A stretch of DNA of 21,947 nt from a virus: the IMG/VR virus record IMGVR_UViG_3300030117_002381, positions 1-21,947 of that record. One strand, given 5' to 3'. How positions within the stretch are numbered: the stretch's first letter is position 1; each line of letters opens with the position of its first letter. Under the pieces are notes generated by a model that made no database searches, was not told the origin of the DNA, and saw only the letters and a list, made by a program, of their open reading frames with translations. The position numbers and the translations under genes are program-made. This document shows, one piece after another, positions 3,888 to 18,718 of the stretch.

Positions 3888-4127
3888 TTAGCCTCCAAAC
3901 ATTCTAGTCATGGACGCACCGACCTTGGCATTTATTTCATCCAATACTTTTTGGCCGTCAGGCGTTTCCGCTAATTCCATTGGGCTTTTGCCTGTTGTGT
4001 TGTGTAGTTCCATTAAAGCGTTCCACGCATGAACCTTGGCATCAAACATAGAGTCCGTTGCACGTTCCTCATCGATTGCTTTTTGTAAGGCAAGCTCTGC
4101 ATCTAAAGACATAATAAAATCTTTCAT
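3888..4127 (-). CDS. Hypothetical helical phage protein, first gene of leftward operon
   Basis: The frame has 79 residues from the ATG at 4125-4127 (MKDFIMSLDAEL). The start is uncertain: this ATG would lie only about a dozen bases from the predicted transcription start and lacks a clear ribosome site. The next ATG (4110-4112, MSLDAELALQK) has AAAGA seven bases upstream. The comparable gene at site A also appears to use the second ATG after its promoter. The product is helical with a KSPMELAETPDGQKVLDEIN segment; unrecognised. Confidence 0.7.
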   Translation of the reverse strand: MKDFIMSLDAELALQKAIDEERATDSMFDAKVHAWNALMELHNTTGKSPMELAETPDGQKVLDEINAKVGASMTRMFGG

Positions 4128-14232: not shown

Positions 14233-14429
14233 TGGAAGATACTTTGTCGTTTGCATACGGCATTTTAAAGACGGTAGAAAGTCGTATAACACTAACTGAA
14301 GAAAACATATTGCAAGGCGCTCCTTTGGACATGGAGTCATACAAGCAACTGGTAGGCGAACTGGAAGGCCTGCAATATGCGAAACGGGAAATTAAAGACC
14401 GCTTAGACAGATTGGAGAAAGAAGAATGA
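14232..14429 (+). CDS. Small helical phage protein
   Basis: Start taken at the ATG at 14232, which overlaps the preceding TGA; a TTG three bases earlier is not needed. The 65-residue product (MEDTLSFAYGILKTVESRITL) has a proline-broken pair of helices, the second (ESYKQLVGELEGLQYAKREIKDRLDRLEKEE) highly charged and coiled-coil-like. I recall close relatives with the same MEDTLSFAY start in marine phages, of unknown role. The next gene overlaps by four bases (ATGA). Confidence 0.8.
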   Translation: MEDTLSFAYGILKTVESRITLTEENILQGAPLDMESYKQLVGELEGLQYAKREIKDRLDRLEKEE

Positions 14430-14881
14430 GCAAGACACTACTTGTTCCAGATCATATTGCTAACGCCAAAGCTTCCGCAAAGGCGGCGTATGTAGCTAAA
14501 GAAGATAAAGTTTTAGATCCCTCTCTTTTAGAGCTCTCATTAAGCGAACGTCTTCCCCAGCCAACGGGTTGGAGAATTCTAGTAATGCCATATATGGGAA
14601 AGGCTACCACGGATGGTGGCGTTTTTATTCCTGATGCAGTACGGGATCGTGAGGCATTGGCAACGGTTGTTGCTTATGTCGTAAAGGTTGGACCACTGGC
14701 GTATAAGGATCCTCACAAGTTTGGGGAAGATCCAAAGCCGTGGTGCAAGGAAGGTCAATGGGTTTGCATTGGCCGATACGCTGGAGCCAGGTTCAAAATT
14801 GAAGAGGGCGAAGTCCGAATCATTAATGATGATGAGGTTATTGCTACGATTCTTGAACCTGATGATATTAAACATGTCTAG
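14426..14881 (+). CDS. GroES-like co-chaperonin (Cpn10)
   Basis: This protein is expected to cap the host GroEL ring and help fold phage head proteins, as T4 gp31 does. It has 151 residues, longer than bacterial GroES (about 96) because of an N-terminal extension of about 45. The Cpn10 core begins at PTGWRILVMPY, with the mobile loop region GKATTDGGVFIPDAVRDRE, the central ATVVAYVVKVGP strand, and the closing VRIINDDEVIATI. No GroEL is present in the window. Its position just before the scaffold and capsid genes fits a role in capsid folding. Confidence 0.9.
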   Translation: MSKTLLVPDHIANAKASAKAAYVAKEDKVLDPSLLELSLSERLPQPTGWRILVMPYMGKATTDGGVFIPDAVRDREALATVVAYVVKVGPLAYKDPHKFGEDPKPWCKEGQWVCIGRYAGARFKIEEGEVRIINDDEVIATILEPDDIKHV

Positions 14882-16958: not shown

Positions 16959-17867
16959 ATGGCTATTTCTAGAGCACAACTAGCTAAAGAGCTAGAGCCT
17001 GGCCTCAATGCCCTCTTTGGACTTGAGTACGCTAGGTATGACAACGAAGCTGCTGAAATTTATGACACGGAATCCTCAGAACGTGCATTTGAGGAAGAGG
17101 TCATGCTCGCTGGTTTTGGCTCCGCGCCAGTTAAATCAGAGGGTTCAGCGGTATCATTTGATGATGCACAAGAGGCGTATACCGCTAGGTATACGATGGA
17201 GACAATCGCGCTTGCCTTTTCCATTACGGAAGAAGCAATCGAGGATAACCTCTATGACCGTCTCGCATCCCGCTATACAAAAGCTTTGGCACGTAGCATG
17301 GCCAACACCAAACAGGTGAAAGGCGCCGCTACGTTGAACAATGCTTTTGATAGTTCCTTTACGGGTGGTGATGGTCTGGAGCTCTGCTCCACTGCTCACG
17401 TTTTGGTTAATGGTAACACGTTTGCCAATGAGCCAAGCACAGCAGCCGACTTAAATGAAACCAGCCTTGAGAACGCCTTGATCGACATTGCAGGTTTTGT
17501 CGATGAGCGTGGTCTGAAGGTTTCTGTCCGTGGCATGAAGATGATCGTTCCACCAGCTCTCCAGTTTGTGGCAGATCGTCTTCTGGAATCCACACTACGT
17601 CCGGGAACTGCGGATAATGACATTAACGCTGTGAAGAACATGGGTATGCTCCCACAGGGTTATGTTGTTAACCACTATCTTACGGACACGGATGCATGGT
17701 TCGTCAAAACGGATGCCCCGCGTGGGTTTATCCATTTTGAGCGTCTCCCCATGTCTACGAAGATGGAAGGTGATTTCGACACTGGAAACGTGCGGTACAA
17801 AGCCCGTGAGCGTTATAGCTTTGGGTATTCGGATCCACGTTGCGTGTACGGTTCACCAGGAGCCTAA
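16959..17867 (+). CDS. Major capsid protein
   Basis: The main shell protein, 302 residues, probably of HK97 fold and close to the Mu gpT-like type. Signs: N-terminal helix (AQLAKELEPGLNALFGLEY), EAYTARYTMETIALAFSITEEAIEDNLYD typical of the E-loop and spine-helix region, MKMIVPPALQFVADRLLES and NMGMLPQGYVVNHYLTDTDAWFV in the P and A domains, and a C-terminal RYKARERYSFGYSDPRCVYGS. There is no N-terminal delta domain, in keeping with a separate scaffold. AAGGAGA precedes the ATG. An intrinsic terminator follows (17875-17901), as expected for a highly expressed gene. Confidence 0.93.
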   Translation: MAISRAQLAKELEPGLNALFGLEYARYDNEAAEIYDTESSERAFEEEVMLAGFGSAPVKSEGSAVSFDDAQEAYTARYTMETIALAFSITEEAIEDNLYDRLASRYTKALARSMANTKQVKGAATLNNAFDSSFTGGDGLELCSTAHVLVNGNTFANEPSTAADLNETSLENALIDIAGFVDERGLKVSVRGMKMIVPPALQFVADRLLESTLRPGTADNDINAVKNMGMLPQGYVVNHYLTDTDAWFVKTDAPRGFIHFERLPMSTKMEGDFDTGNVRYKARERYSFGYSDPRCVYGSPGA

Positions 17868-17874
17868 GAATACC

Positions 17875-17901
17875 GGGGGAGGGAAACCTCCCCCATTTTC
17901 T
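17875..17901 (+). terminator. Intrinsic terminator after the capsid gene
   Basis: GGGGGAGG (17875-17882), GAAA tetraloop, CCTCCCCC (17887-17894), then ATTTTCT. The T tail is short, so part of the transcripts may read through to the genes downstream. Confidence 0.8.
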
Positions 17902-17912
17902 GGGGGAACATA

Positions 17913-17975
17913 GCCCTAGCGACTGACCCAGCAGACGCTTACGAAGACTCTAGGGCAAAACCTTTCGTAAGGAGG
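17913..17975 (+). promoter_or_regulatory. Structured leader with possible H-type pseudoknot over the ribosome site
   Basis: Arms GCCCTAG (17913-17919) and CTAGGGC (17950-17956) pair, and CTTACGAA (17938-17945) and TTCGTAAG (17964-17971) pair. The arms interleave (1, 2, 1', 2'), so they form either a pseudoknot or two exclusive hairpins. The last arm shares its final AAG with the AAGGAGG ribosome site (17969-17975), eight bases before the ATG at 17984. No known riboswitch class is recognised. Confidence 0.6.
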
Positions 17976-17983
17976 TACTATAG

Positions 17984-18718
17984 ATGGGTAATACTCATTT
18001 CTCTGGTCCCGTGATGTATTCAGCAGCACGGCCAACTCTTGAAAATTTGAATATGTCGTTCTGGCCTGACCAAACGGTTTACCTTGATGACTTTACAGGC
18101 GTGGCCTTTGACAATACCAATGATTGGACTGTTGTTAAGGATTCTGGCGCTTCTGTAGCTATCGTTGCAGACACTTTGAATGGCTTTGTAGGGTTGAACT
18201 CTACTGCCACAACGGATAATGACGGTAGTTCTATCCAAGGTAATGAAATCTGGGCGCTTCCCTCAACAGCGGGCCAAAAGCTTTATTTTGAAGCCCGATT
18301 TCAAATTGCAGACGCAGATCAAATGGATGTGTTCATAGGAGTTTGTGAAAACTTTGCGACAAATCCTGAAAATTGTCTTGCGGCGGCTAATCGAATTGGA
18401 TTTCAAATAGATGATGGAGACGCAAGTCCTCACATTATTACAGAATCTGGTGGAACTGAAACGGACACAACGTTAGCAAGTACCTATGACTTATCGGATG
18501 CTACTAATGTTACTGTTAGTTTTGTAGCAACAAAAGGAACGGCTACGGATACGGTTAAGTTTTACGTAAACCGTTCTTTAGTAGGTACGCATACGACTAA
18601 TGTTCCTACGGCTAACATGGCAGCAGCAGCTATGGAAATTTCTGGTAACGCTTCGGGTACGAAAACGATGTACATTGATTATATCATGGTGGCGCAAGAT
18701 CGTGGTGTAAGTTATTAA
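17984..18718 (+). CDS. Beta-rich structural protein, lectin-like fold (probable head fibre or decoration)
   Basis: The 244-residue product has the look of a concanavalin A-type beta sandwich: VYLDDFTGVAFDNTNDWTVVKDSG, KLYFEARFQIADADQMDVFIGV, IGFQIDDGDASPHIITE, VSFVATKGTATDTVKFYVNRSLVGTH and a final TMYIDYIMVAQDR, strands usual in laminin-G or glucanase-like domains. It follows the capsid gene and its terminator and has a very strong ribosome site (AAGGAGG) behind a structured leader, so controlled, high expression is likely. It may be a capsid decoration or head fibre that binds surface sugars. Function is inferred from fold and position. Confidence 0.75.
   Translation: MGNTHFSGPVMYSAARPTLENLNMSFWPDQTVYLDDFTGVAFDNTNDWTVVKDSGASVAIVADTLNGFVGLNSTATTDNDGSSIQGNEIWALPSTAGQKLYFEARFQIADADQMDVFIGVCENFATNPENCLAAANRIGFQIDDGDASPHIITESGGTETDTTLASTYDLSDATNVTVSFVATKGTATDTVKFYVNRSLVGTHTTNVPTANMAAAAMEISGNASGTKTMYIDYIMVAQDRGVSY

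Follow-up and report, generated by a model that had tools for sequence, protein, structure and literature searches.

In the SAM-II and preQ1-II riboswitches the 3' strand of a pseudoknot is placed at the SD sequence, and in phage T4 the gene 32 protein, gp32, binds a pseudoknot of the simple H-type in its own leader and stops translation. The closest described relative of the RNA reported here is the Rfam motif Mu-gpT-DE (RF03012), which has been listed among the families without covarying pairs in the database structure (PMC7657543). Our RNA was found in a window of marine phage DNA, by which we mean the whole analysed stretch of 21,947 nucleotides (IMG/VR record IMGVR_UViG_3300030117_002381, positions 1 to 21,947), and is a new, more elaborate relative of this known but unexplained motif. 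A first-pass annotation of the same DNA had called the RNA possibly new, which holds in that Rfam does not recognise it, but a shorter relative present in sister phages is Mu-gpT-DE itself.

Layout of the leader RNA

As modelled, the structured leader RNA spans positions 17897-17992 of the window on the plus strand, as do all features given below. The first helix, P1, joins CTGGG (17900-17904) to CCCAG (17927-17931), the latter lying inside the loop of P4. Helix P2 is formed by GCCCTAG(C)G (17913-17921) and C(T)CTAGGGC (17948-17956), and consists of a 7-bp part (GCCCTAG, 17913-17919, with CTAGGGC, 17950-17956), a C-U mismatch (C17920 against T17949) and a further G17921-C17948 pair. The short P4 is made of CTG (17923-17925) and CAG (17932-17934), and the 8 bp of P3 join CTTACGAA (17938-17945) to TTCGTAAG (17964-17971), which lies over the 5' part of the SD. 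The order from 5' to 3' is P1a-P2a-P4a-P1b-P4b-P3a-P2b-P3b-SD, with P1 crossing P2 and P4, and P3 crossing P2. The ribosome-binding site, recognised from its sequence AAGGAGG (17969-17975), has only about 3 nt, the AAG at 17969-17971, within P3.

The interleaved arm pairs of 7 and 8 bp reported by the first-pass annotation were found exactly where it had placed them, as P2 and P3, and its last arm does share bases with the ribosome site, namely the 3' AAG of P3b. Its assignment of an H-type pseudoknot is correct for P2 and P3, two interleaved and covarying helices, but P1 and P4 had been missed, and with four helices in all and the crossings of P1 the fold is more than H-type. A structure of the simple H-type only was ruled out, the support for P1 and P4 being equal to that of the reported stems. 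Minimum free energy folding of the single strand can neither model nor show the knot.

The 7/8-bp motif alone would mean little, because perfect interleaved pairs of this size occurred somewhere in 174 of 200 random 22-kb windows. Chance inverted repeats, or an element acting as DNA and not as RNA, could therefore be put forward as an explanation. Within the 82-nt leader itself, the same motif was seen in 5 of 20,000 dinucleotide shuffles.

Covariation in homologous leaders

Viral contigs were scanned with the capsid and with sequence patterns as guides, which yielded about 375 homologous loci. In most of them the leader lies behind the capsid terminator and ahead of the following gene. The arms of these leaders are wholly different in sequence between clades and have kept their complementarity. 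A loose helix descriptor, tried first, told little, as it matched 49% of leaders and 40% of shuffles. The strict four-helix geometry that took its place was found in 159 of 249 distinct leaders picked solely by the N-terminal sequence encoded downstream, but in only 29 of 4,980 shuffles and in 2 of 486 leaders that belong to other genes at the same loci.

The helices were then compared pair by pair. When 108 window-type leaders were aligned by MAFFT alone, compensatory changes were present at 13 of 23 pairs, a number reached by none of 500 shuffles, and 92% of the cells could pair as compared with 34-53% when the partners were slid. P1 is misaligned there and was therefore assessed by a swap test, in which the 5 nt before P4b were taken by position alone and their exact partner was sought in the upstream leader. 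Such a partner existed in 183 of 184 leaders, as compared with 0.8% of swapped ones; 14 different P1b sequences occurred, 13 of them paired. Swap tests of P2 and P3 have a high background, many leaders sharing arm types, and counts from a second alignment, A1, are preferred for these helices. A1 contains 42 diverse leaders aligned without structure. It gave a covariation score for P2, P3 and P4 together of 0.544, against 0.175 after shuffling and 0.06-0.14 after sliding, the leaders having been chosen by descriptor with a bias to paired arms. Compensatory changes were found in A1 at 9 of 9 pairs of P2, at 7 of 8 pairs of P3 (5 of 8 in the alignment of window-type leaders) and at 2 of 3 pairs of P4, the third of which is an invariant C-G. 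Unaided, RNAalifold recovered P2 and P4. In the extended leaders, by which we mean those of the window's kind, P3b mostly shares bases with the SD or lies right next to it. Few unpaired positions are conserved beyond GA/AC/GA at the junction. Judged by these sequence comparisons, the leader fold is widely conserved and is one of four interlocked helices, with covariation that is very strong overall and present in all four.

The structured pseudoknot RNA that had been predicted at this site is thus borne out by the covariation of homologous leaders, both of the predicted stems carrying paired substitutions in related phages. The alternative offered with it, a two-state switch, was not adopted, as alternative pairings of P1a exist (with P2a in the window, and as a local CCGG hairpin in the CCGGG clade) but are not general.

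A covariance model, R1, was built on P2 and P4. Its match to the window scores 77.8 bits (E 2.9e-13), with the window itself included in the model's alignment, and the real test is given by held-out phages. Outside its build, R1 matched the cultured Pelagibacter phages HTVC023P and HTVC027P and phage DSL-LC04, and weakly phage 023Pt_psg01, in which the same layout can be seen by eye. Strong matches came as a single copy per genome, at this site. No R1 match was found in the compact relatives described below, nor in the regions searched of Pag-Yong1, an Alcaligenes phage and Caulobacter phage RW. A search of phage records for DNA similar to the leader returned partial matches only, mostly short terminator-like pieces from unrelated phages.

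Although interleaved repeats arise readily by chance in DNA of this length, chance repeats or a DNA-level element are hardly credible as an explanation here. Compensatory change affects all helices, the shuffled and slid controls contradict such an origin, and the element is present in one copy at one site with fixed orientation to the next gene. In addition, P2 in A1 contains about 19 G-U cells against 7 A-C cells, an excess that favours an RNA of the plus strand.

The gene served by the RNA

Upstream of the leader is the major capsid protein gene (16959-17867), assigned by PF25209 (51.6 bits) and PF10124, Mu-like_gpT (26.5 bits), both above cut-off, and by phrog_371, major head protein. The head gene cluster also contains a phage-encoded GroES co-chaperonin (14426-14881; phrog_3188), which is annotated in cultured relatives too. 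Behind this gene a pattern scan placed a GC-rich, terminator-like hairpin (17875-17894), followed by ATTTT. The capsid gene is thus followed by a hairpin, and the hairpin of the intrinsic terminator noted in the first reading is accordingly present, but its T-run is short.

In L075, HTVC027P and 023Pt_psg01 other sequence or genes separate the capsid gene from the RNA, which still stands directly before the F-x-G-P-V gene. Because the RNA stays with that gene when the capsid gene is separated from it, it is best read, on this comparative evidence, as the leader of the downstream gene and not as belonging to the capsid gene. Rfam types Mu-gpT-DE as an sRNA gene, whereas the evidence obtained here is for a leader. 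What had been proposed earlier, an RNA controlling the gene after the capsid, stands as far as the tie to the downstream gene and the contact with its ribosome site are concerned; an element of the capsid gene it apparently is not. In one clade (L231, L343-L345, L353-L363) a small conserved ORF (e.g. MKTFRVQIKAYGYYADF...) is inserted between the capsid and decoration genes.

A -10-like hexamer was found about 7 nt before P1a in 65 of 79 leaders of most clades, against 19% after shuffling, and before P2 in 24 of 35 compact leaders (L356 and L378 are examples of leaders with the hexamer in non-window clades). In most clades the transcript would therefore start with the RNA, at P1a, just behind the capsid terminator. 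Such a start would suit an RNA that mainly stabilises or insulates the 5' end of the decoration mRNA, shielding it from nucleases and setting it apart from the capsid transcript, while initiation is little affected. We consider this role unlikely, as the hexamer is nearly absent from the clade of the window (3 of 99 leaders), and a stabiliser would leave unexplained both the position of P3b on the SD and the covariation with the second codon described below.

The decoration protein

The gene behind the leader (17984-18718) encodes a putative capsid-decoration protein of 244 aa with an N-terminal arm, M..HFSGPV, and a body predicted to be a lectin-like jelly roll. Sequence searches gave no family and no solved relative. 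The AlphaFold2 model has a mean pLDDT of 78.6, with residues 1-28 below 50, and Foldseek matched it to GH16/lectin folds with E of about 1e-8. In phage DSL-LC04 the gene at the same place is annotated as cement protein. The arm, the jelly-roll body and this annotation make it very likely that the next gene of the window is a capsid-decoration gene, as had been supposed in the first reading. In cyanophage Pam1 an extended N-terminal loop of the cement protein contacts the capsid protein (PMC9698820), and by analogy the conserved arm may be a capsid-contacting loop of this kind.

The short arm, M..F.GP(V/I), is the only part common to all downstream proteins, which otherwise have several bodies of very different lengths. 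A single RNA type precedes unrelated bodies, and one body, MAVHFTGPI..., follows both the compact (L047) and the extended RNA (L022, L075). The decoration genes look as if they were modular, with bodies exchanged behind one leader and one arm. These observations bear on autogenous repression, in which the folded leader would be bound, and translation stopped once the supply suffices, by the capsid protein or by the N-terminal arm of the decoration protein. The leader is gene-specific and single-copy, and an arm shared by every downstream protein could supply the contact; the bodies, on the other hand, are unlikely partners of the RNA, since RNA type and body do not change together. Autogenous repression is a tentative possibility, and it would be a special case of an RNA limiting translation in cis.

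Relation to Mu-gpT-DE

RF03012 had no match in the window at its gathering threshold (49 bits), at E up to 10 or in a single-family search, and by score the window RNA was thus ruled out as a member of the known Rfam family; the other extended leaders tested were equally unrecognised by Rfam. At the same site in sister phages, however, RF03012 did match (L030, L048, L063, L056, L379 and Roseobacter phage CRP-901). Both RNAs are placed behind a Mu-gpT-like capsid gene and ahead of a gene of the F-x-G-P-V family. They also share a core, in which a P2 that ends in a G-C pair is followed by an A, a P4 that begins with C-G, the letters AC, a linker of variable sequence (P3a) and GA before P2b.

An inner hairpin is stacked on the outer helix in both RNAs, but P4 of the window has 3 bp as compared with 5 or more in Mu-gpT-DE. 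The outer helix of Mu-gpT-DE, CCUG/CAGG, holds the start of the SD in its 3' arm, whereas the 3' arm of the window P2 (GCCCUAG/CUAGGGC) stops at 17956, 12 nt ahead of AAGGAGG. Unlike Mu-gpT-DE, the window RNA possesses P1, a P3 on the side of the SD, and a P4 loop that is used by P1. In the compact RNA a linker of the UAGCCA type, outside the Rfam structure, faces the start codon; the linker of the window, CTTACGAA, pairs beside the SD instead. Hybrids combine window-type P1, P2 and P4 with the compact AGCCA linker (L247, L258 and others). The 51 leaders that failed both patterns mostly have, by eye, a related layout with other spacing. Four leaders of the same gene family (L287, L290, L296, L315) are neither extended nor compact and have inverted repeats of their own.

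The linker of the compact leaders is complementary to the start codon and codon 2, which points to a further helix past the 3' end of the Rfam model, which stops at AUG. Linkers with GCC occur with AUGGC, and those with ACC, CCC or CTC with AUGGG, in concordance for 40 of 40 distinct capsid types (matching of codon 2, GC. or GG., is exemplified by L030, L204, L210 and L379, positions 3994-4046). On the capsid tree the linker/codon-2 type changed about 8 times, and only three of the independent contrasts are well supported, all of them in one direction. The start-codon helix is an addition to the Rfam model, part of which may already stand in the original description of 2017. We lean towards a superfamily of leader RNAs with Mu-gpT-DE as its compact end, in which interchangeable pseudoknots, over the SD or over the start codon and codon 2, would control translation of the decoration gene and constrain its second codon.

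Proposed function

Four findings, namely the fold of the leader, where it lies, the gene it accompanies and its reach into the initiation signals, lead us to infer that the RNA is probably a pseudoknot that acts in cis and restricts or times the translation of the decoration gene. In the fold, P2 holds the short P4 hairpin, the loop of P4 is tied by P1 to the 5' end, and the linker between P4 and P2 is tied by P3 to the ribosome-binding site. The last strand lies against the SD in the window and over the start codon in the compact relatives. In the proposed mechanism the folded RNA would hinder initiation and the opened RNA would permit it, which would cap the amount of decoration protein in proportion to capsid protein, at a fixed or a regulated level. 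Occlusion in the window may be partial, since AAG alone of AAGGAGG is paired.

The sensing of a ligand, also suggested in the first-pass annotation, found no positive support. A small-molecule riboswitch would be in keeping with the 3' pseudoknot strand at the SD, a layout known from SAM-II and preQ1-II, but it is very improbable, given that a scan of the window against the whole of Rfam (4,227 families) listed no riboswitch, SAM-II and preQ1-II included, even at E up to 10, that few unpaired positions are conserved, and that the controlled gene encodes a virion protein and not a metabolic one.

Comparison with known systems

With a translation-limiting leader as the preferred reading, an unexplained Rfam motif acquires more relatives, a more complex structure and a probable role in the control of decoration-gene translation. 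We suggest retyping the RF03012 entry from sRNA to cis-regulatory and extending it past the start codon. RNAs of this family occur in marine phages, among them cultured ones that infect Pelagibacter and Roseobacter, and offer a clean test case for pseudoknots at the ribosome-binding site that tune the ratio of virion proteins.

The likeness to SAM-II and preQ1-II is the 3' strand of a pseudoknot at the SD; the comparison that had been proposed with these pseudoknots gave no covariance-model match for the window, and the window RNA differs from them in sequence and in the order of its helices. With the T4 gene 32 operator it shares the design of a phage leader pseudoknot controlling its own gene, but that operator is a simple H-type pseudoknot bound by gp32, whereas the window RNA has four helices.
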